This document shows, piece after piece, positions 3,905 to 30,749 of a stretch of 64,000 nt of DNA. The position numbers and the translations under genes were made by a program. The stretch comes from Streptomyces sp. MMBL 11-1 (GTDB lineage: Bacteria > Actinomycetota > Actinomycetes > Streptomycetales > Streptomycetaceae): the NCBI RefSeq assembly GCF_028622875.1, contig NZ_CP117709.1:5397001-5461000 (forward strand), given 5' to 3'. Numbering within the stretch: position 1 is the first letter of the stretch; the number at the start of each line of letters is the position of its first letter. Under the pieces are notes generated by a model. It was given only the letters and a program-made list of their open reading frames with translations. It was not told the DNA's origin and did not search any database.

Positions 3905-6121
3905 TCAGAAGCGGCCGCCACCGCCCCGGCGGCCCCGTGTCCCGCCCCCTCCGAAGCTGCCGGGCCCGCCGCCGAAGCCGCCGGACCGGCCGCCGCCGAA
4001 CCCGCCGCCGAAGCCGCCGCCCATGCCCCCGCCCCGGCCGCCGCCGAACAGCCCGCCGAGGATGATGCCGCCGAGCACCGCCCCGCCCATGCCGCCGCCC
4101 TGCGGGGAGCCGGGCCCCCGCGGGGAGCCGAAGCCGCGGACGTCCTGCTCGGCCAGGCTCATCGCCTGCCCGGCCAGCGCGTCCGCCTGCCGCACCTCGG
4201 CCAGTGCCCCCCGCGCGTCCGTGGCCGTCAGCTCCCGGGCCCGCTCCCACCGCCGCTGTGCCTCCGTGAGCCGGGTACGGGCCTGGCTGCCGACCGCACC
4301 CCGGTGGGTCGTGATGTAGTCGGCCGCCGCCCCGATCGCGGACCGGGCGGTGAGCATCGCCTGATCGAGGAGGGACCGGGCCTTCGCCTCGCCCCGCTCC
4401 TGGTCCCGGGCCCCCGCCAGCGCCTCGTCCAGGGCCGCGTCCGCCTCCTCCACCCGGCGCAGCGCGTCGATCGGGTCGTACGGTCCGGCGGCCGTGGCGG
4501 CCCGCACATCGGTGAGCACGGCTTCGGCGCGGGCGATCCGGCCGCGCAGACCGGCGGTCGACGCTCCCTCGGCGGCCCCTTCGAGCAGCCCGCCCGCGTC
4601 CGCGAGGTCGGTCTCCGTCTCGGTCACCGCGGCGGGCAGCTTCCGCGCGGCCTCGCCCAGCTCCGCCGCCCGCCGGTCCACCGAGTCCAGCAGCGTGCCC
4701 GCCTGGCCCACCGCGCCCTCGGCTCCCCGGATGTAGACCGCGGCCCGGGAGTTCTCGCCGTCCTCGACCGCCGTACGGGCCTGCTCCACGGCCGGGGCCG
4801 CGAAGGCCAGCCGGTCCTTCGCCTGCTCGACGTCGGCCGCCACGGGCGCGGCGGCGCCCTCCCCGTACCGTTCGCGCAGCCCGGCGACGCCCGACTCGGC
4901 CGCCGCGACCCGCCCGGCGAGGGCGCGGCGCCTGGCGTCCACGGTGGCCAGGGCCTCCGGCGCGGTACGTTCCAGGGCCCGCAGCCGGTCGAAGTCCTCG
5001 GAGACGGTGTCCAGGCCTTCGTTCGCGGTCGCGCACCGGCGCAGGATCTCCTCCAGCATCAGGCGGCGGGCCGCGTCGTCCTCGGGGAAGGCGTCGTCGA
5101 GCTGCTGACGCAACCGGAACGACCGCGTCAGCTCGTCCTTCGCCCGCGCTACCGCCTCGGTGAAGGGCTTCGCCGCCTCCTCGCCGAACTGGGCGGTGGC
5201 GAAACCGAGTTCCTCCTCGCTGGTGCGTACCGCGTCGTCGGTGTCCACCAGCGCCTCCTTGGCCCGCCCGTCCAGCTCCGGCAGCGGCTCCGGCGCACCG
5301 CCCGCCCCCGCGCCCCGGCCCCAGCCGGTGGCCGCCGGGGTGGTGCGGGTGGTCGTACGCCGTCTGCGCCGGGCGTACGCGTAGGCGCCGACCGCGCCCA
5401 CGCCCGCCACGACGACCACCGGCAGGATGATGTCGCGGGCGCCGGTGGAGCCGGAGCCGTCCGTACCGGGGTCGGCGGGCCCCGGGGTGATGGCGGGGGC
5501 GGTCACCGGACGTCCGGCCAGTACGGAGCCGTAGCCGTCGGCAGCGCCGATCGCGGCCCCGGCCCAGTCGTTCTCCCGCAGCGCGGGTTCGATCGCGGTG
5601 CCCGCCACCTCCCGCAGCTGCTCGTCGGTCAGCGGGGACCCGGCGTCGACGGAGTAGGCGTACTGGCGGTCGTGGGTGGCGACGGAGAGCAGCACGTCGT
5701 CCTGGCCCAGGCCGTTGCGGTCGGCGGTCTCGTCGCTCCACGTCTGTCCGGACCGGCCGGAGAAATCACGTACGTACACCACGAAGAGCTGGAGGCGCTC
5801 GTCGTCGTACAACCGGTCGAGCGCGTCCTCCACCTGCCCCGCCCGGTCGCCCAGAGCCCCCACCCGGTCGGTGACCTGCCCCTCCCGGGACAGCTCGACG
5901 GGGTCGTCGGCACGGGCGGTCGCGGCGGCGGGGAGCACCAGCCAGCACACGGCGGCCAGCACGGCGAGGAGGCCGGCGAGAGCGCGGCCGACGCGCAGGC
6001 CGCTGCGAGGACCGGCGGGAGGGCCGCTGCGAGGGCCGGCCGGAGGGCCGGTGGACCGGCAGGGAAGCCGGGCACCGCCGGGGGCGGTGCTCCGGAGCCG
6101 TGTCCGTGGATGAAATATCAC
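3905..6121 (-). CDS. TPM-domain membrane protein with glycine-rich tail
   Basis: About 738 residues if it begins at the GTG at 6121; the frame stays open to 6193 and no good ribosome site is visible, so the start is uncertain. A hydrophobic signal/anchor lies at about 47-70 and a TPM (YgcG-type) domain at about 78-205 (FVVYVRDFSGRSGQTW, GQDDVLLSVATHDRQYAYSV). A second membrane helix at about 231-250 is followed by Arg residues. A long helical, probably cytoplasmic region follows to about 670, ending in a Gly-rich tail (GGGFGGGFGGGRSGGFGGG). TPM domains are exported and linked to photosystem repair or phosphatase activity elsewhere; the function in actinomycetes is unknown. The Gly-rich tail is common to this family. 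It lies upstream of the PspA-like gene. Confidence 0.85.
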   Translation of the reverse strand: MIFHPRTRLRSTAPGGARLPCRSTGPPAGPRSGPPAGPRSGLRVGRALAGLLAVLAAVCWLVLPAAATARADDPVELSREGQVTDRVGALGDRAGQVEDALDRLYDDERLQLFVVYVRDFSGRSGQTWSDETADRNGLGQDDVLLSVATHDRQYAYSVDAGSPLTDEQLREVAGTAIEPALRENDWAGAAIGAADGYGSVLAGRPVTAPAITPGPADPGTDGSGSTGARDIILPVVVVAGVGAVGAYAYARRRRRTTTRTTPAATGWGRGAGAGGAPEPLPELDGRAKEALVDTDDAVRTSEEELGFATAQFGEEAAKPFTEAVARAKDELTRSFRLRQQLDDAFPEDDAARRLMLEEILRRCATANEGLDTVSEDFDRLRALERTAPEALATVDARRRALAGRVAAAESGVAGLRERYGEGAAAPVAADVEQAKDRLAFAAPAVEQARTAVEDGENSRAAVYIRGAEGAVGQAGTLLDSVDRRAAELGEAARKLPAAVTETETDLADAGGLLEGAAEGASTAGLRGRIARAEAVLTDVRAATAAGPYDPIDALRRVEEADAALDEALAGARDQERGEAKARSLLDQAMLTARSAIGAAADYITTHRGAVGSQARTRLTEAQRRWERARELTATDARGALAEVRQADALAGQAMSLAEQDVRGFGSPRGPGSPQGGGMGGAVLGGIILGGLFGGGRGGGMGGGFGGGFGGGRSGGFGGGPGSFGGGGTRGRRGGGGRF

Positions 6122-23187: not shown

Positions 23188-23394
23188 CTACAGCTCGCCC
23201 GACTTGATGCCTGCGACGAAGGCGGCGAACGCGGTGGCGGGGACGCCGAGGGCGGGTCCGCCGGGGTTCTTCGAGTCGCGTACGGGGACGATGCCGGTGG
23301 TCGACGCGGTGCGCGGGGCCCACTCGACGCACGAACCGCCGTTGTTGCTGTAGGAGGACTTGACCCACTGCGGGGTCGTGGTTTCGTTCGTCAC
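23188..23394 (-). CDS. DUF397 protein (BldB-like), proximal copy
   Basis: 68 residues from GTG 23394. The GTGA overlap with the stop of the HTH gene means tight translational coupling. Core: WVKSSYSNNGGSCVEWAPR, PVRDSKNPGGPALGVPATAFAAFVAGIKSG. It is a recent tandem duplicate of the gene at 22922-23140, 47 bp away. Confidence 0.92.
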   Translation of the reverse strand: MTNETTTPQWVKSSYSNNGGSCVEWAPRTASTTGIVPVRDSKNPGGPALGVPATAFAAFVAGIKSGEL

Positions 23395-24230
23395 GGGGTG
23401 CCCTTTCGATGCTGGTGGATCATGTCCACGGTATCTGTCTGCGACAGAGACACAGCCTGCAACTGATGGTAGGCCCTCACCATCGGGATGACCGAGCTGA
23501 GTTCGCGGTCCAGATGGCCCTGCGTCTCGGACTCGACGTAGGAGACCACGGACCGGTCCTGGAGCGTCAGCAGATTCACCAGCCGATCGAAGGGCCGCTG
23601 CTCACCGACGCTGAACGGGGCGATCTGGAGCATGGTGTGGGACTGCGCGGCGAAGTCGACCAGATACTGCAACTGAGCGTCCATCACGGCGGGGCCGCCG
23701 ATCGGGCGGCGGATGCAGCTCTCGTCCAGCACCGCGATCAGCATCGGTGGCACGGTGCGCAACAGCGCGCCCTGGCGTTCCATGAGCAACGAGACGCGTT
23801 GGTCGGCCTGTTCGGTGGTGATGACGCCTCGTTCGACGGCCGCGTCGGCCAGCGCCTGAGCGTACTCCCGGGTCTGGAGCAGCCCCGGTACGAGCCCCAC
23901 CTCGAACAGCCTGATCTCCGCCGCCCGGCCCTCCAGCGCCACGTACTCGGGGAAGCCCTGCAACAGCACCCCGTGCTTGATCTTGCGCCACTCGCGCTCG
24001 AACGAATCAGCGGTTCCCGTATAGTTCATCGCCACGTCAACGGCGATCGAGAACTTGCGAGTTGGGGACTTGTGGCACAATTCCACCCCGGAAACGTGCC
24101 TCCCCGTGTAGCCGATGCGCGCGCCGAGGTCGTCCTGTTTCCAGCCCCGTGCTTCGCGCTCCCTACGCAGACGTGCTCCGTAGGCCGCCTCCGGGCCCCC
24201 GTCAGGGTTGACTTCCTTGCGGTTGACCAA
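23391..24230 (-). CDS. XRE-type HTH regulator with DUF5753 (WhiJ-like)
   Basis: 279 residues from TTG 24230, preceded by GGGGGA. The HTH lies at about 18-75 (YGARLRREREARGWKQDDLGARIGYTGRHVSGVE), then DUF5753 (LFEVGLVPGLLQTREYAQALADAA, ERQGALLRTVPPMLIAVLDESCIRRP, HTMLQIAPFSVGEQRPFD). The next two genes are DUF397 partners, an arrangement known from WhiJ/BldB-type pairs. A TAGCGT -10 element at 24267-24272 gives a 5' UTR of about 30 nt. Confidence 0.93.
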   Translation of the reverse strand: MVNRKEVNPDGGPEAAYGARLRREREARGWKQDDLGARIGYTGRHVSGVELCHKSPTRKFSIAVDVAMNYTGTADSFEREWRKIKHGVLLQGFPEYVALEGRAAEIRLFEVGLVPGLLQTREYAQALADAAVERGVITTEQADQRVSLLMERQGALLRTVPPMLIAVLDESCIRRPIGGPAVMDAQLQYLVDFAAQSHTMLQIAPFSVGEQRPFDRLVNLLTLQDRSVVSYVESETQGHLDRELSSVIPMVRAYHQLQAVSLSQTDTVDMIHQHRKGTP

Positions 24231-25049: not shown

Positions 25050-25523
25050 GTGCTGCAATGCACCGCCGTGACCCACGTCCCGTACGCGGAGACGCTGCTG
25101 GCGCTCGCCACCATGGAGGGCGGGCCGGAGCACCCGCCCGACGTCGTGGAGGCGGAGGACTTCGTCCTGTGCGAGCTGGCCGACCACGACGAATCGGCCG
25201 AGCACGCCGCGCACCTGTGGACGGCGGACGTGCCGGACGACCGCGACCTGTGGTTCCGCTGGTCGGGAACCGGCGCACACCGCCTCCACCGGCTCGACAC
25301 GCTGCGGTTGTGCCCCGCCGTGCTCCGCGAGCTGGCGACCCGCACGGTCACCACGTGCGCGTACTTCGACCACCACCCCGGACCGCACTCCTTCTCCGTG
25401 ACCGACCCGCTCGGCGACCTCATCGCCGAACACGTCCACAGCGAGGTCCGGCGACTCGTCTCCGAGGACGAGGCCTCCGGCGCGCCCGATGCCCCTGACG
25501 TACCCGACACCGACGCGCCCTGA
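25050..25523 (+). CDS. hypothetical protein, tandem paralogue 1
   Basis: 157 residues from GTG 25050, 4 nt after the previous gene. It shares QCTAVT near the N-terminus, a LCELADHD motif, a LW...WFRWSG strand and a Cys/His-containing middle (CAYFDHHPGPHSFSVTDP) with the next gene, so the two arose by tandem duplication. The repeated C-x-L-x-D-H-D and W-x-x-W-S-G pattern could form a small metal or ligand site; that is a guess. The acidic tail is probably disordered. Confidence 0.7.
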   Translation: MLQCTAVTHVPYAETLLALATMEGGPEHPPDVVEAEDFVLCELADHDESAEHAAHLWTADVPDDRDLWFRWSGTGAHRLHRLDTLRLCPAVLRELATRTVTTCAYFDHHPGPHSFSVTDPLGDLIAEHVHSEVRRLVSEDEASGAPDAPDVPDTDAP

Positions 25524-25548
25524 CGGCGACCGGAGGATTTCCACCCCC

Positions 25549-25944
25549 ATGAACCAGCGCACCCCGGTGAACCAGTGCACCGCCGTGACCCTGTTACCGC
25601 CCCCGGAGTTCCTGACCCGGCTTGCCGCACCCGGCGGCAGCCTCCCGGAGGCCGGGCATCTGCTCTGCGAGCTGGCCGCCGATCACGACGGCGACCACGC
25701 GATGGTGTTGTGGGACGACGACGCGAACCGCACCGCCGTCTGGGCCCGTTGGAGCGGCGAACGGGCGACCCTCGCGGAGCTTGCCTGGTGCGGCGTGATC
25801 GACCCCCGGGGCGAGGACGCGTGCGGGCTGTTCGCCGGCCACTCCGCCGCCCACGACTGGGGCATCGTCGATCCGACGCTCGCGGCGGTGGACGCCGCGC
25901 TCGCGGGGGCGCACCCGCATCTGTTCTCCGAGAGGGATCGCTGA
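25549..25944 (+). CDS. hypothetical protein, tandem paralogue 2
   Basis: 131 residues from ATG 25549 with GGAGG 10 nt upstream. It aligns with the preceding gene through NQCTAVTLLPPPEFL, LLCELAADHDGDHAMVLWDDD, VWARWSGE and CGLFAGHSAAHDWGIVDP. The conserved C-E-L-x-D-H-D and the second Cys/His cluster are kept in both, which argues for selection. No known domain. Confidence 0.72.
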   Translation: MNQRTPVNQCTAVTLLPPPEFLTRLAAPGGSLPEAGHLLCELAADHDGDHAMVLWDDDANRTAVWARWSGERATLAELAWCGVIDPRGEDACGLFAGHSAAHDWGIVDPTLAAVDAALAGAHPHLFSERDR

Positions 25945-26040: not shown

Positions 26041-26322
26041 ATGGCTTTAAGGTTTCTCGGCATCGACCCCGATTCCCCGACCGATGAGTCGCCGACGATC
26101 TGGCTGCACGAAGAAACGGGGGACCTTCTGATCCAGTCGTACCGAGCGACTGCGGCAGAAGTGAATAACTGCAAGGAAGTCGGCTCCGTTCCCGGCCATT
26201 CCACTGATGTCCCCGACAACGAGACAATCATCCGGCTGCCCGCGGCCATGCTGGACTACCTACCTGCTCGTCGGGAAGGCGATCGTGGCGGAGAGGCGGA
26301 ACATGCAGCGTCCGGCGCGTGA
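26041..26322 (+). CDS. small hypothetical protein, first gene of the second DUF6879/HTH module
   Basis: 93 residues from ATG 26041. Core: RFLGIDPDSPTDESPTIWLHEETGDLLIQSYRATAAEV, a strand-rich acidic unit, then NETIIRLPAAMLDYLPARREG. It takes the same place as the 70-residue protein at 16281-16493. It overlaps the DUF6879 gene by 20 nt. Confidence 0.75.
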   Translation: MALRFLGIDPDSPTDESPTIWLHEETGDLLIQSYRATAAEVNNCKEVGSVPGHSTDVPDNETIIRLPAAMLDYLPARREGDRGGEAEHAASGA

Positions 26323-26821
26323 TGCTCTGGCGCGAACACAGCGATCGGCAGTGCACCTGGAGTTGCGCGATGCGTACATGCTCGACGATCCCGGGTACAT
26401 CGCGTGGCAACAGGGCGTGCGGCTCGACCGGGGTGAGCGTTCGACGTGGTGGAACGGCTGGCACGACGCGGTACGCGAGGCCGTCGGCCGGGGAGTCTCG
26501 GTCCGGCGCGCCCGGGTCGTGTCCGAGCCGATCAGCGACTACGTGAGGTACGAGTACGACACCACGTTCACCAACCTCGCAGCGGGCGAAGTGGTTCGCT
26601 GGCTGCCCAGACGCAGAGCGACCGGTCTTGCCCTGCCCGGCATGGACTTCTGGCTGTTCGACGGGGAGCAGGCCCTTTTCCACCACTTCACCGGCAACGG
26701 GCGGTTGGACGAGGACGGGCGGGAGTACACGGACGATCCGGCGCTGGTGAAGCTGTGCGCGGACGCCTTCGAGGCCGTGTGGGAACGTGCTGTGCCGCAT
26801 GAGCACTACCGGCCTCGCTGA
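26303..26821 (+). CDS. DUF6879 family protein, second copy
   Basis: 172 residues from ATG 26303, which has GGAGAGGCGG just upstream; a GTG at 26285 is possible. Shared features with the copy at 15785-16297: a helical N-terminus (ELRDAYMLDDPGYIAWQQG), a basic strand VRRARVVSEPISDYVRYEYDTTF, and MDFWLFDGEQALFHHFTGNG. The order and the overlap with the upstream small gene match the first copy, but sequence identity is low, so the duplication is old or the two were acquired separately. Confidence 0.87.
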   Translation: MQRPARDALARTQRSAVHLELRDAYMLDDPGYIAWQQGVRLDRGERSTWWNGWHDAVREAVGRGVSVRRARVVSEPISDYVRYEYDTTFTNLAAGEVVRWLPRRRATGLALPGMDFWLFDGEQALFHHFTGNGRLDEDGREYTDDPALVKLCADAFEAVWERAVPHEHYRPR

Positions 26822-26833
26822 CCTCGCGGAATC

Positions 26834-27682
26834 ATGGCCGAATCTCCTTCCTCAAGTGCTCAGCAGGCCCGACGGATTCTCGCGGATCGGCTCGCGGACC
26901 TCTGCCGGGACGCCGGGCTGACCGGGCGCGAGATCGCCGTGCGCTGTGGCTGGCATCCATCGAAGTCGTCGCGGATCATGAATGCCCGCACGCCCCCGTC
27001 CGCTGGTGACATCCGTGCCTGGTGCCGGGCGTGCGGGGCGGAGGACCAGACCGCCGACCTCCTCGCCTCGCTCCGGAACGCCGAGGGCATGTGGATCGGC
27101 TGGAGGCAGATGGAGCAAGCCGGGCTCAAGCAGGCGCAGGAAGCGCGATTGCCTCTGTTCGACCGCACCCGTCGCTTCCGGTCCTACTCGTCGTGGTTCG
27201 TGCCGGGGCTGATCCAGACACCCGCATACACCGAGGCGGTGCTGCGCGCCGTCCAGCGACGCCGCGTCGAGGTCGACGACGTGGCCGAGGCGGTGGCCGC
27301 ACGTGTGGAGCGGCAGCGCGTGCTGTACGAGGGCGGGCGCCGGTTCGCCTTCCTCATCGAGGAGTCGGTGCTGCGGAACGGTACCGGCGGAGCGGATGTC
27401 CTCGTCGGGCAGCTCGGCCATCTGCTCACCGTGGGTTCTCTGCCCAACGTCAGTCTGGGGGTGGTCCCGGCCGGGCCGAACCGTTCCCGGATGCCCGTGG
27501 AAGGGTTCTGGATCTTCGATGCCGCACAGGTCAATGCCGAGCTGGTCTCCGGGTATCTCACGATCACCCAGCCCAGTGAGGTGACCATGTACGCCGAGGC
27601 GTTCTCGGAGCTTGCGGCGCTGGCGGTCTACGGCGCCTCGGCGCGTGCGCTGATCGCATCCGCGAGGGATGCCCTGGAGTGA
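26834..27682 (+). CDS. XRE-type HTH regulator with DUF5753, third copy
   Basis: 282 residues from ATG 26834, 12 nt after DUF6879. HTH at about 16-70 (LADLCRDAGLTGREIAVRCGWHPSKSSRIMNAR); DUF5753 follows (RSYSSWFVPGLIQTPAYTEAVLRAV, ERQRVLYEGGRRFAFLIEESVLRNG, VSLGVVPAGPNR, FWIFDAAQVNAELVSGYLTIT). It lies 115 bp upstream of the peptide-methyltransferase pair, whose promoter has CGTGCAA repeats that could be its binding site. Confidence 0.93.
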   Translation: MAESPSSSAQQARRILADRLADLCRDAGLTGREIAVRCGWHPSKSSRIMNARTPPSAGDIRAWCRACGAEDQTADLLASLRNAEGMWIGWRQMEQAGLKQAQEARLPLFDRTRRFRSYSSWFVPGLIQTPAYTEAVLRAVQRRRVEVDDVAEAVAARVERQRVLYEGGRRFAFLIEESVLRNGTGGADVLVGQLGHLLTVGSLPNVSLGVVPAGPNRSRMPVEGFWIFDAAQVNAELVSGYLTITQPSEVTMYAEAFSELAALAVYGASARALIASARDALE

Positions 27683-27686
27683 ACAG

Positions 27687-27738
27687 CGTGCAACTCCGTG
27701 CAATCTTCTGGAGGATGCCGCTCCCGCTTCCCTAGCGT
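27687..27738 (+). promoter_or_regulatory. candidate promoter/operator of the peptide-methyltransferase unit
   Basis: Two CGTGCAA repeats at 27687-27693 and 27697-27703 are exactly one helical turn apart, and TAGCGT at 27733-27738 fits a -10 element. The repeats sit next to the expected -35 position, as for an activator site. Control by the adjacent HTH protein is inferred. Confidence 0.45.
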
Positions 27739-27797
27739 GGTCGACACGGCTCGGCGCTTCCAGGGCCGCACCCATCAGACGGCGAAGGAGTACAGCC

Positions 27798-27944
27798 ATG
27801 ACCGGAAAGCACGGTGGAGGTACCGGGTCGGGGCAGGGCGGCAGTCAGCAGGATGACGGCAGCAGCGGACGCGGTCACGGGGGTGGCGGCTCCGAGACGA
27901 GCGGCGGCAACTCCTCCGACGGCTCCGGCCCGGCGAAGAAGTAG
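27798..27944 (+). CDS. 48-residue Gly/Ser-rich peptide, candidate RiPP precursor
   Basis: 48 residues starting at ATG 27798 with a strong GAAGGAG site. Composition is about 40% Gly with Ser, His and acidic residues. Asp-Gly pairs occur at residues 20-21 (QQDDGSSG) and 41-42 (SSDGSG), and the end is PAKK. Asp-Gly is the sequence most prone to aspartimide formation. Six nt after its stop begins a long protein-isoaspartate-methyltransferase homologue, the only enzyme of the unit. In imiditides, and in lanthipeptides and graspetides with a similar enzyme, methylation of one Asp drives aspartimide formation on the precursor. No Cys is present, so a lanthipeptide is excluded, and no ATP-grasp gene is nearby. 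The substrate role is inferred. Confidence 0.6.
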   Translation: MTGKHGGGTGSGQGGSQQDDGSSGRGHGGGGSETSGGNSSDGSGPAKK

Positions 27945-27950
27945 CGTCGA

Positions 27951-29120
27951 ATGACTGCGCGTAAGGAGGAGGTGGGCCCTGCGGGGCTCGCCTCCGCGCT
28001 CGTCGCTGCTGGCGCTCTGCGGGACGACTGGTTGGCCGCATATCAGGCGGTCCCTCGGGACATGTTCGTTCCCGACCGCATCTGGCCCGGCGTCGCGGAC
28101 GGTACCCGGCAGCACCCTGTGGTGGACCGGGCCGGGGACGTGGACGCATGGTTCTCCGCCGTGTACTCGGACATTCCGCTCACCACGCAGTGGGACGACG
28201 GAAGTCACACCGGAGACGGAGTGGGAGAGACGCCCTCCAGCTCCAGTTCGCAGCCCCACATGGTGTTCTCGATGCTGGCCGACCTCGGCGTCGAGGACGG
28301 AAACAGGGCTCTGGAGATCGGCACCGGCACCGGGTGGAACTCCGCGCTCCTCGCCCACCGCCTCGGCTCGGAGAACGTCGTCTCCCTCGAGTTCGACGCG
28401 GAGGTCGCGAAAGAGGCACGCGAGAACCACCGCGAAGCAGGGCTGTCCCCGCTGGTAATCGTGCGGGACGGGCGGCTCGGATACCCCGAGGGCGCACCGT
28501 TCGACCGGGTGGAAGCGACCTGCTCCATCGGAGAGGTCCCCCGGTCCTGGATCGAGCAGACACTGCCCGGAGGGCTCATCGTCGCCCCGTGGGGGACACC
28601 GTACGGAGGGGAGGCCATCGTCCGGCTGACCGTGGACGCTGACAAGGCGAGCGGGCCGTTCACCCGCTCCAGCGCGTTCATGCGCCTACGGCAGCAGCGC
28701 CCCGGACGGCTCCCGCACGATGCCTACCTCAGGGGGCGGCGATGGCCCGCCGACGGCGACAGGAGCACGACGTCTCTGTCACCTGCCGCTGTCGGGGGAT
28801 GGCTGGTCCAGTTCGCCATCGGACTGCAGATGGCGGAAGCGTTCTGGACGGTGGAGCGGTACGACGACGGCTCGTACACGTTGTGGACCTACAGCGGCGA
28901 CGGCCAGTCGTGGGCATCCGCCGACTACGAGCCGGGAGCCGAGTCGTTCGAGGTGGTGCAGTCGGGGCCCCGGCGACTCTGGGATGCGACCGAGGCCGCC
29001 TACGCATGGTGGGACGCGCGGGGCCGGCCGGACTTCGAGCGGTTCGGTCTGACCGTGAGCGGCGACGGGCAACGGGCTTGGCTCGACACTCCGGACGACC
29101 CGGTGCCCAGGGTGCGGTGA
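27951..29120 (+). CDS. protein-L-isoaspartate O-methyltransferase homologue, long RiPP-type
   Basis: 389 residues, against about 210-230 for housekeeping PIMT. The N-terminal 115 residues (GALRDDWLAAYQAVPRDMFVP, IPLTTQWDDG) and the S-rich SSSSSQPHMV loop are typical of PIMTs. SAM motif I is ALEIGTGTGWNSALLAHRLG at about 120-139, followed by VVSLEFDAEVAKEA and VRDGRLGYPEGAPFDRV. A C-terminal extension of about 170 residues (WLVQFAIGLQMAEAFWTVERYDDGSYTLWTYSGDGQSWAS) has no counterpart in repair enzymes but is seen in PIMTs that act on RiPP precursors, where it helps recognise the substrate. It is co-transcribed with the 48-residue peptide. Ordinary protein repair is the alternative, but the length and context argue against it. 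Confidence 0.85.
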   Translation: MTARKEEVGPAGLASALVAAGALRDDWLAAYQAVPRDMFVPDRIWPGVADGTRQHPVVDRAGDVDAWFSAVYSDIPLTTQWDDGSHTGDGVGETPSSSSSQPHMVFSMLADLGVEDGNRALEIGTGTGWNSALLAHRLGSENVVSLEFDAEVAKEARENHREAGLSPLVIVRDGRLGYPEGAPFDRVEATCSIGEVPRSWIEQTLPGGLIVAPWGTPYGGEAIVRLTVDADKASGPFTRSSAFMRLRQQRPGRLPHDAYLRGRRWPADGDRSTTSLSPAAVGGWLVQFAIGLQMAEAFWTVERYDDGSYTLWTYSGDGQSWASADYEPGAESFEVVQSGPRRLWDATEAAYAWWDARGRPDFERFGLTVSGDGQRAWLDTPDDPVPRVR

Positions 29121-29248
29121 CCCTCCCGGCAGGCCCTTCCCGTTCAGTCGGCGCGATCGGACTTCGGAGCCGGCCGAGTCCTCGGCTCGACCGCGAAGAC
29201 GGCAGCGAGTGGCCGGGCCCGCGCCCCCTGCCAGAGGCACGGACTCAG

Positions 29249-29281
29249 CCCCGCCCCCCGCCCGAGGGGCAGGGGGCGGGG
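29249..29281. terminator. bidirectional terminator between convergent genes
   Basis: CCCCGCCCCC (29249-29258) pairs with GGGGGCGGGG (29272-29281) between the methyltransferase gene and the end of the GH144-like gene. Confidence 0.75.
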
Positions 29282-29288
29282 CCCGAAC

Positions 29289-30749
29289 TCAGATCGAGAA
29301 CCGCTCCCGCTCCAGCAGCGGCCGCACCCGGGACCGGAAGCCGCCCGTGCGGAACGGCCGCTGGAGCAGGCCCGGGCGCAGCTCCTGGGCGAGGGCCGCG
29401 ACGATCATCCCCTGGTCCAGGGCGAGCATGAAGTCGCTGACCCGGCCCGTGGACACGTTCACCGAGTCCCGGAAGCCGAGCCCGTCCTCGTACGCGCCGA
29501 AGTCCCGCTCCAGCGCCCGCAGGTTGGCCACCGCCTCCCGGCCCGCGTACGGCAGGGCCAGGAAGGAGGCGTGCGGGGTGACGACGCCGTTGGTGAACGC
29601 GGAGGGCGGCGGCAGGGGTTCGCCGTCCGTGGTGTGCGTCCGGTCGGTGTTGGAGGCGTAGCCGTCGACGGCCATGCCGAGCGCGTCGACCCCGTACTCC
29701 TGGTAGCCGTCCTCGGGGACGTTGGCGGGGGAGAAGCCCCAGTAGCCGTACTCCGCCTCGCGCAGCCCGTGGTCGATCTGGCCGCGTACGTAACGCTGGT
29801 GGGTGACGCCCCACGCGCGCGGCGACCACTGCTGCTCCGGTACGAACAGCGGCACCATCAGCGCCTCGAACATCGAGCCGCCCCAGCTGGGGACCAGCTT
29901 GCGGCCTCGGTGGGTGTAGTGCCCGTTCCAGACGCGTACGCCGTCGACCGTGACGTGACCGCCGCCCGGCTTCTGCTCCTGCTCGTGCTCCGGCAGCATC
30001 GTGCGCAGCAGGTGCCAGTAGTGGTCGCCGGGCAGGGAGCCGTCCGCGATGCCGAGGTAACTGGCCATGCGCGGCTCGGTGTTGAGTGCGCCGTAGTGGT
30101 GCGGGGTCGGCTCGTCCGTGTCGGTCCAGACGCCGCCGCGCAGCTGGCCGGGGCCCGCGACCGGGTCGGCCGGGTCGTAGGGGGTGTAGAAGGAGGACCA
30201 GTCGGCCGTGGCCAGGATGCGGTGGATGCGCGGGCGTAGCGCCGGGGCCGCGTCGGCGGCTATCCGCAGGCCCGTCACCAGCCAGGCGTTGTCGACGGAG
30301 GACAGGAACGGGCGGACCGGGTCGCCGGTGCCCGGCCACCGGGTCAGCACCGAACCGTCGTGCGCGTCGTACCAGTTGAGCCAGAAGCCGTGGTGGCGTT
30401 CCAGTTTCTCGACGGCCGTGACCGTACGGGTCAGGGCCCGGAGCATCGCGCCTTCGCCGATCACGCCGAGGCCGGCGGCGGCCACCGTCGACCACAGGCC
30501 GCAGCCGATGTTGGTCGGCGAGGTCTGGGTGGACTGGGCGGGGGCGCCGGGGCCGCTGAGGTCGATCTTGTCGGTGACCAGGCCGAAGCCGGTCGTCATC
30601 GCCTCGATCGAGCGGTACGTGTCGCGGAACCAGGTCCGCAGGAGACGCGGGTCGGCGGGGGCGGCTACGGCCGCCGGGGCGGTTACGGCTCCGAGCGACA
30701 GGGCCGCGGCCCCGGTCCCTGCGGCGGTGAGAAACGTGCGACGGTCCAT
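29289..30749 (-). CDS. Tat-exported glucoamylase-like (PF10091) glycosidase, GH144-like
   Basis: 486 residues. A Tat leader MDRRTFLTAAGTGAAALSLG is followed by an alpha/alpha-barrel enzyme with the PF10091 signatures: NIGCGLWSTVAA, DNAWLVTGLRIAAD, PHHYGALNTEPRMASYLGIA, PSWGGSMFEALM, EYGYWGFSPANVPEDGYQEYG and VVTPHASFLALPYAGREAVANL. The characterised single-domain members are GH144 endo-beta-1,2-glucanases; the domain also occurs in cyclic beta-1,2-glucan synthases. It should therefore cut a beta-1,2-glucan or related polymer outside the cell into oligosaccharides. It follows the GH1 gene on the same strand, but strong hairpins lie between, so it may be expressed at a different level. Exact specificity is inferred. 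Confidence 0.85.
   Translation of the reverse strand: MDRRTFLTAAGTGAAALSLGAVTAPAAVAAPADPRLLRTWFRDTYRSIEAMTTGFGLVTDKIDLSGPGAPAQSTQTSPTNIGCGLWSTVAAAGLGVIGEGAMLRALTRTVTAVEKLERHHGFWLNWYDAHDGSVLTRWPGTGDPVRPFLSSVDNAWLVTGLRIAADAAPALRPRIHRILATADWSSFYTPYDPADPVAGPGQLRGGVWTDTDEPTPHHYGALNTEPRMASYLGIADGSLPGDHYWHLLRTMLPEHEQEQKPGGGHVTVDGVRVWNGHYTHRGRKLVPSWGGSMFEALMVPLFVPEQQWSPRAWGVTHQRYVRGQIDHGLREAEYGYWGFSPANVPEDGYQEYGVDALGMAVDGYASNTDRTHTTDGEPLPPPSAFTNGVVTPHASFLALPYAGREAVANLRALERDFGAYEDGLGFRDSVNVSTGRVSDFMLALDQGMIVAALAQELRPGLLQRPFRTGGFRSRVRPLLERERFSI

Follow-up and report, generated by a model that had tools for sequence, protein, structure and literature searches.

Organisation of the locus

The window analysed in this work, i.e. 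the whole stretch of 64,000 nucleotides from Streptomyces sp. MMBL 11-1, contains a small gene encoding a 48-residue peptide, whose stop codon is separated by 6 nt from the start codon of a gene encoding a long homologue of protein L-isoaspartate methyltransferase (PIMT). Both genes follow, on the same strand, a DUF6879 gene and a gene for a WhiJ-like transcriptional regulator (Table 1), and this four-gene order recurs at several relatives with different flanks. The first-pass annotation of this DNA had described a Gly/Ser-rich peptide of this length with a ribosome-binding site and two Asp-Gly pairs, and our gene coordinates agree with it; it had started the unit at 27687, a position that falls just past the regulator gene, the peptide itself starting at 27798.

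Table 1. Features of the peptide-methyltransferase locus (positions within the window; A1, alignment of Gly-type peptides; L-numbers designate loci)
Feature	Position	Strand	Basis
DUF6879 gene, first in the order DUF6879 - regulator - peptide - methyltransferase	26207-26821	+	PF21806 (3.8e-51)
WhiJ-like XRE-DUF5753 transcriptional regulator, candidate regulator of the pair	26834-27682	+	PF19054 (1.4e-36), PF13560 (8.2e-15)
Direct repeat GTGCAACTCC-GTGCAAT, 10-bp period, candidate operator	27688-27704	+	GYGCAAYNNNGYGCAAY, single match in own genome
TAGCGT, candidate -10 element (predicted)	27733-27738	+	CTAGCGT at similar distance in L009, L053, L069, L061 and L043
AAGGAG, ribosome-binding site of the peptide	27785-27790	+	Sequence; 7 nt before ATG
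Precursor peptide gene, 48 aa	27798-27944	+	ATG at 27798, TAG at 27944; A1 (47 rows); constraint counts
Asp20 codon, sole strictly invariant Asp (47/47); next residue Ser 39, Gly 7, Glu 1	27855-27857	+	A1
Asp41 codon, favoured modification site; Asp 43/47 as aligned, Gly in next column 42/47	27918-27920	+	A1
Long PIMT homologue (peptide L-aspartyl O-methyltransferase type), 389 aa	27951-29120	+	PF01135; TIGR04188 321.4 bits (cut-off 380)
SSSSQP, presumed PIMT-type motif	28239-28256	+	Sequence motif
C-terminal extension past the PIMT domain	28638-29117	+	Domain limits from profile matches
WDARGRP (residue 354), fits WXXXGXP of RiPP-associated PIMTs	29010-29030	+	Motif described in PMC13001092

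The peptide comprises 19 Gly, 3 Asp and a single Pro, with Asp-Gly at residues 20-21 and 41-42, and contains no Cys, in agreement with the Gly-rich, Cys-free substrate initially proposed. It matched no Pfam or NCBIfam family at E-values up to 0.1; one of its homologues is an annotated CDS (WP_328973816.1) carried by a Streptomyces plasmid.

The methyltransferase

The PCMT domain (PF01135) covers residues 58-216 of the enzyme (9.7e-28) and leaves a C-terminal extension of about 170 residues, as had been noticed from the sequence together with the 6-nt spacing. We take the SSSSQP sequence of the enzyme to be a PIMT-type motif; as a strict pattern, [ST][SN][SN][SN]xP is absent from 12 of the 47 Gly-type enzymes placed in the tree described below. 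WXXXGXP, present in 40 and absent in 7 of these 47 enzymes when searched as a strict pattern, is given for lassimiditide, graspimiditide and imiditide PIMTs in a 2026 review (PMC13001092).

The best NCBIfam match of the enzyme, over nearly its full length, was TIGR04188, the methyltransferase family of ATP-grasp systems (321.4 bits, below the cut-off of 380). TIGR04364, the lanthipeptide FxLD methyltransferase family, gave 97.4 bits for a cut-off of 320, and the families of the repair enzyme (pcm), which is about 215 residues long vs 389 here, were likewise below threshold (TIGR00080, 75.4 vs 159.05 bits; NF001453, 95.6 vs 188 bits). A structure model derived from a four-row alignment had a mean pLDDT of 32.9 and was unusable.

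Co-occurrence and distribution of the pair

We compared 65 loci, i.e. the window, four named contigs and the best 60 of 93 other enzyme matches. At 48 of these 65 loci (window included), which have the nearest enzymes, a peptide of the same Gly-rich type lies directly upstream of the enzyme, two of these peptides (L064 and L059) being incomplete. The other 17 loci, with the most distant enzymes (45-51 % identity), have upstream a Pro-rich peptide with an invariant Pro-Asp-Gly. These comparisons answer the co-occurrence check proposed in the first-pass annotation: a conserved small peptide gene directly precedes the long PIMT homologue and is inherited with it.

Gly-type peptides are marked by the motifs HGGGG and QDD(S/G), and occur as long and short forms whose front parts differ. 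The L064 peptide carries an in-frame deletion that removes HGGGG and keeps both Asp, and the front half of the L059 peptide is missing. Alignments were built from 47 Gly-type peptides (A1, L059 omitted) and from the 17 Pro-type loci (A2).

Profile searches with A1 scored about 17 to 24 first-look candidates per genome in genus, order and class draws that overlap, so that absence in the following counts is soft. Among 392 Streptomyces genomes, 47 matches were obtained in 42 genomes, all adjoining or fused to methyltransferase sequence, which was partial or broken at L145, L146, L147 and L148 and interrupted by one stop at L082. The draw of 293 genomes from the order yielded 30 matches, which came from 27 genomes, all Streptomyces (1 of 9 genera). 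Two of these matches, both weak, had no adjoining enzyme: L154 is a fragment, and L155 appears to have arisen by chance. In 394 genomes of the class, matches were found in 4 genomes, again all Streptomyces (1 of 137 genera).

A tree of the enzymes was built from 71 rows, leaving out SpaM, NmaM and L012, whose enzyme frame is broken. The 17 Pro-type enzymes fell on one side of a branch with a support of 100/100, and all 64 Gly-type and Pro-type enzymes were split from seven own-genome paralogues with a support of 97/97, three own-genome rows standing on long branches. The Gly-type enzymes need two changes on this tree, a single clade being unsupported. Judged from this topology, peptide type follows enzyme phylogeny. 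Comparison of the two peptide profiles with hhalign revealed no significant similarity (E 0.096 over 6 columns), so only the enzymes of the two types can be called homologous; an alignment made by eye had suggested a common origin of the two peptides, and we rejected it as unsupported by hhalign.

Several further arrangements were observed. On the reverse strand at L146, the peptide frame runs into the methyltransferase as a 314-aa ORF without the N-terminal part of the enzyme, and at L147 it runs into the methyltransferase as a 104-aa ORF and then breaks off; both are probably products of decay, and that of L146 is possibly a natural substrate-enzyme fusion. Moreover, the own genome (G000) encodes at least seven more long PIMT homologues (L002-L008). 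Those of L004-L007 are preceded by Pro-rich peptide frames with Ser-Pro-Asp-Gly-Ser-Arg-Pro, and that of L002 by a Pro-rich frame ending in Pro-Pro-Lys-Lys-Lys.

Selective constraint on the peptide

The peptide of the window differs from that of L009 by 0 non-synonymous and 8 synonymous changes and from that of L010 by 3 and 17, respectively; the L061 and L062 peptides differ by 4.5 non-synonymous and 14.5 synonymous changes. A non-conserved peptide frame had been named beforehand as a refuting case; these counts point instead to a conserved frame under purifying selection.

Constraint on peptide and enzyme was further compared in 45 Gly-type and 17 Pro-type loci (L012, L059 and L064 omitted), in pairs that are not independent of one another. 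Where enzymes were 65-75 % identical, Gly-type peptides had a mean identity of 82 %, and their pN was below that of the enzyme in 130 of 150 pairs, vs a mean identity of 66 % and 10 of 27 pairs for Pro-type peptides. The peptide pN was below that of the enzyme in 329 of 570 Gly-type and 9 of 81 Pro-type pairs at 55-65 % enzyme identity, and in 120 of 235 and 12 of 24 pairs, respectively, at 45-55 %. By these estimates, Gly-type peptides are under stronger constraint than their own enzymes only among closer relatives, and Pro-type peptides evolve faster than Gly-type ones at equal enzyme distance.

Since 48 loci have a peptide of this family ahead of the enzyme, and since few amino-acid changes stand against many silent ones, the comparisons indicate that the peptide is encoded by a real gene, more than a chance ORF. 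They bear on the explanation that this PIMT homologue repairs damaged proteins, with the small ORF being a leader peptide or fortuitous. The PIMT core domain would be expected of such an enzyme; the long C-terminal extension bearing a RiPP-type motif, the best NCBIfam match to a RiPP methyltransferase family instead of a repair enzyme, the amino-acid conservation of the small ORF and the co-occurrence in both directions all argue against it, and we regard this explanation as scarcely credible.

Candidate sites of modification

In the 47 rows of A1, Gly15 and Asp20 are invariant, and Asp19 (46), His27 (46), Pro45 (44) and Asp41 (43) are nearly so. The check as to which Asp is invariant thus has a single answer, Asp20. 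Both pairs, 20-21 and 41-42, had been put forward as alternative Asp-Gly sites of aspartimide formation: the second is conserved as such, while at the first the Gly of the window peptide is a minority residue and Ser is usual (Table 1). In L070, L073, L077 and L080, the four rows that lack Asp at the Asp41 column, Gly-His-Ser-Asp is found near the end, and L081 and L084 have Asp-Asp at this place. Both Asp20 and Asp41 stand in Gly-rich surroundings.

Asp-Gly forms succinimide fastest and Asp-Ser more slowly, which favours Asp41. This argument is not decisive, because, among the published cases, the modified residue is followed by Thr, Asn or Asp in lanthipeptides and by His in NmaA (PMC13001092). 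A second argument, drawn from the Pro-Asp-Gly of the Pro-type peptides, holds by analogy of the enzymes only, because hhalign found no link between the peptides.

The same system could be modified at Asp20, or at both Asp20 and Asp41 as a two-site imiditide, the long form being possibly made of two HGGG...Asp modules, and we give this alternative somewhat less than an even chance. Its main ground is that no other Asp is found in all rows, an invariance which may reflect recognition and not modification; the Ser that follows Asp20 in 39 of 47 rows would, on general chemistry, make it the slower succinimide former. The L064 deletion, in which HGGGG is gone and both Asp are retained, is also in its favour. 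Furthermore, the halves of the window peptide can be aligned (HGGGTGSGQGGSQQDDGS with HGGG-GSETSGGNSSDGS). Among five long forms, the half-alignment score was reached by 0.05 % of whole-peptide shuffles for L010, 0.85 % for L044, 2.3 % for the window, 3.7 % for L042 and 5.4 % for L079, with a cut point that was picked after viewing the sequence; when each half was shuffled alone, the range was 0.25 % to 8.9 %, and no half similarity was seen in the short form L061 (46 % of shuffles reached its score). An internal duplication of the peptide is therefore suggestive in L010, weak in the others and absent in the short form.

Provided that the pair is a type I pamtide unit, Asp41 would be the modified residue with about even odds, Asp20 is appreciably less probable, and modification of both is unlikely. 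Modification of both residues would, to our knowledge, be the first two-site case.

The upstream regulator and its candidate operator

The first-pass annotation named no regulator; a same-strand XRE-DUF5753 gene and a promoter-proximal direct repeat sit just upstream of the pair. A regulator gene of the XRE/HTH kind, from any of three families, was present within 3 kb upstream in 36 of the 41 Gly-type loci having at least 3 kb of upstream sequence and within 3 kb downstream in 0 of 45, the downstream side being the sole control. The occurrence of such a regulator upstream of Gly-type pairs is new here. By family, a DUF5753-type regulator was present in 13 of these 41 loci, one of another XRE family of about 410 aa in 19, and one of a third family in 6; the HTH match of this third family (25.9 bits) is below the Pfam cut-off of 27, and without it the count is 31/41. 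A count with a profile grown from the window WhiJ-like gene (31/41 Gly-type loci upstream, 0/45 downstream) was abandoned, as this profile had drifted and mixed families, and the count was afterwards split by family. At Pro-type loci, the profile grown from the same gene retrieved a regulator gene within 3 kb upstream in 7 of 16 and downstream in 1 of 17.

The GYGCAAYNNNGYGCAAY pattern has one match in the 8.5-Mb own genome, namely the window repeat, and its reversed control none. Similar repeats follow directly 7 of 12 same-strand DUF5753-type regulators (11 Gly-type loci and 1 Pro-type locus, window included), and CTAGCGT comes after the repeat at several of these loci. In 1.37 million strand-bases, a loose form of the repeat had six matches, all within the 700 bp preceding the peptide (5 of 46 Gly-type loci, 1 of 16 Pro-type loci). 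As the pattern had been derived from some of the loci in which it was then counted, this count is circular, and the single match in the own genome is the more independent one. When one mismatch was allowed, at least one match arose in 20 of 100 shuffles of the window. A scan of 26600-29400 with the sigma-70 consensus returned no promoter.

As at WhiJ/BldB (XRE-DUF5753/DUF397) loci, a WhiJ-like gene lies directly upstream and is followed by direct repeats of 10-bp period; unlike at those loci, the peptide-enzyme pair takes the place of DUF397, and searches at E 0.01 in 41 loci revealed no DUF397 frame in the interval from regulator to peptide. In S. venezuelae, WhiJ9 binds an intergenic region at 10-bp direct repeats whose sequence differs from the one here (PMC10294661). 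DUF397 and DUF5753 genes are noted beside groups 11 and 13 graspetides in a 2026 paper (PMC13097080). In the pamtide and imiditide literature searched, which does not extend to the original imiditide paper, the terms DUF397, DUF5753, helix-turn-helix, WhiJ and XRE are absent by word counts.

A shared inverted-repeat operator downstream of the second XRE class, apparent by eye, was not retained, as only 3 of 14 loci (L010, L060 and L077) exceeded shuffles. Inverted repeats like ACTCCTACG...CGTAGGAGT occur directly past the stop codon of the second-class XRE regulator at L060, L063, L067, L073 and L077. Another WhiJ-like XRE-DUF5753 gene and, adjoining it, a DUF397 (BldB-type) gene occupy 23188-24230 of the window on the opposite strand (-), about 2.6 kb from the first WhiJ-like gene.

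The wider neighbourhood

The annotation had reported no lanthionine, ATP-grasp or protease gene nearby, and the Pfam scan bears this out: among 17 further ORFs of at least 100 aa between 15.8 and 41.7 kb (own gene calls; 4 of the 17 without a match), no ATP-grasp or lanthipeptide-enzyme domain was found, and the single peptidase is of the M15 cell-wall type, about 10 kb away. In the relatives, the recurring neighbours are regulators and DUF6879; no other modifying enzyme, transporter or protease is conserved beside the pair, and no conserved downstream gene was seen.

These data also bear on whether the locus is a graspetide unit whose ATP-grasp enzyme has been lost or is borrowed, the methyltransferase awaiting a cross-linked substrate. 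The family of the best NCBIfam match (TIGR04188) suggests such a unit, as does the own-genome paralogue of L003, which by eye comes after an ATP-grasp-like frame. The score of 321 bits is, however, below the cut-off of 380, and neither the 17 scanned neighbours nor the recurring neighbours of the relatives supply an ATP-grasp enzyme, so that we hold this explanation to be highly unlikely.

Two small proteins encoded nearby (157 and 151 aa, 25050-25944, + strand) form one similarity cluster without Pfam match. Upstream of the peptide of L159, positions 4515-4721 encode a 68-aa protein with Cys pairs, perhaps a zinc ribbon, and a similar frame was seen by eye in L013.

Comparison with known systems

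According to Lee et al. 2023 (PMC10787088), type I pamtides are encoded by two-gene clusters, i.e. a precursor of about 45 aa and a PAMT. Their precursors contain on average 17.3 % Gly, 16.8 % Pro and 10.2 % Asp and fall into several conservation patterns; SpaA gives -18 and +14 Da species with SpaM. PMC13001092 describes substrate recognition by charge together with a need for C-terminal residues, and in both sources type I pamtides or imiditides come mostly from Streptomyces and Actinomadura.

In what these texts report, the SpaA-SpaM (Streptomyces sparsogenes) and NmaA-NmaM (Nonomuraea maritima) pairs resemble ours in the peptide preceding a long PIMT homologue, in a peptide of about 45 aa that is Gly-rich, Cys-free and basic-ended, in a conserved Asp and in the host. 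Unlike the type I pamtides described there, the window peptide has 1 Pro in 48 residues vs an average of 16.8 %, and has the HGGGG and QDD(S/G) motifs. Five peptide strings had no match in the literature text searched; sequences printed in figures and supplements lie beyond such a search, so that the type may be published, and the Gly-rich type may be among the conservation patterns of the supplement of PMC10787088.

The Pro-rich relatives (A2, 17 loci) share homologous enzymes (45-51 % identity), the gene order and a conserved Asp-Gly in the peptide, and differ in the Pro-rich peptide with its invariant Pro-Asp-Gly, in the lack of significant profile similarity and in a faster evolution. Graspimiditide methyltransferases of TIGR04188 (ThfM, AmdM and SsfM) have in common with our enzyme a full-length profile match, the C-terminal domain and WXXXGXP, whereas our enzyme scores below the curated cut-off, has no ATP-grasp partner in the scanned neighbourhood and is expected to act on a linear substrate. 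Type II pamtides or cysimiditides differ in their two CXXCXGXG motifs, absent here from a peptide without Cys, and the lanthipeptide FxLD system in that TIGR04364 is under its cut-off and no lanthipeptide-enzyme Pfam domain occurs in the scanned neighbours. The features of an imiditide or type I pamtide that are present are the two-gene cluster with a PIMT bearing a C-terminal domain, WXXXGXP, and no other class-defining RiPP enzyme.

Proposed function

The stand-alone imiditide-type unit suggested by the first-pass annotation appears well supported by these genomic comparisons, because the two genes are found together, the reading frame of the peptide is maintained across loci and no further modifying enzyme accompanies them in a conserved way. 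We put the probability that the two genes form a type I pamtide (imiditide) unit at roughly 0.83. Following the published chemistry of the family, the methyltransferase would transfer a methyl group from SAM to an Asp in the linear peptide, the methyl ester would cyclise to an aspartimide, and the aspartimide would open in part to isoaspartate. The pair would have a promoter of its own, 60-110 bp ahead of the peptide gene, and may be switched by the neighbouring WhiJ-like XRE regulator via the repeat at 27688-27704. As to the role of the product, its conservation and the missing export genes speak slightly more for a conserved signal or a regulatory peptide than for an antibiotic that diversifies.

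Instead of being secreted as a natural product, the modified peptide could act inside the cell in a conserved regulatory or developmental role linked to the regulator. The regulator upstream of most Gly-type pairs, without a conserved downstream gene, is consistent with such a role, as are the higher identity of Gly-type than of Pro-type peptides at 65-75 % enzyme identity and the precedent of WhiJ9. Nevertheless, the occurrence of three different regulator families at the upstream place looks like ordinary regulation more than a constant pairing, genes elsewhere may provide export and proteolysis, and the difference in constraint between peptide and enzyme, measured on non-independent pairs, is gone at 45-55 % enzyme identity; we rate such an intracellular role as unlikely. 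More speculatively, the aspartimide peptide could be an intracellular signal that decays to isoAsp in a clock-like manner, is reset by the methyltransferase and is read by the XRE (WhiJ-type) regulator, in the role of DUF397/BldB; we consider this quite improbable.

As a type I pamtide unit, the pair would add a Pro-poor and well conserved precursor type to a RiPP class that has few characterised examples and whose function is not known. The regulator and its candidate operator may offer a handle on when and why such peptides are made.
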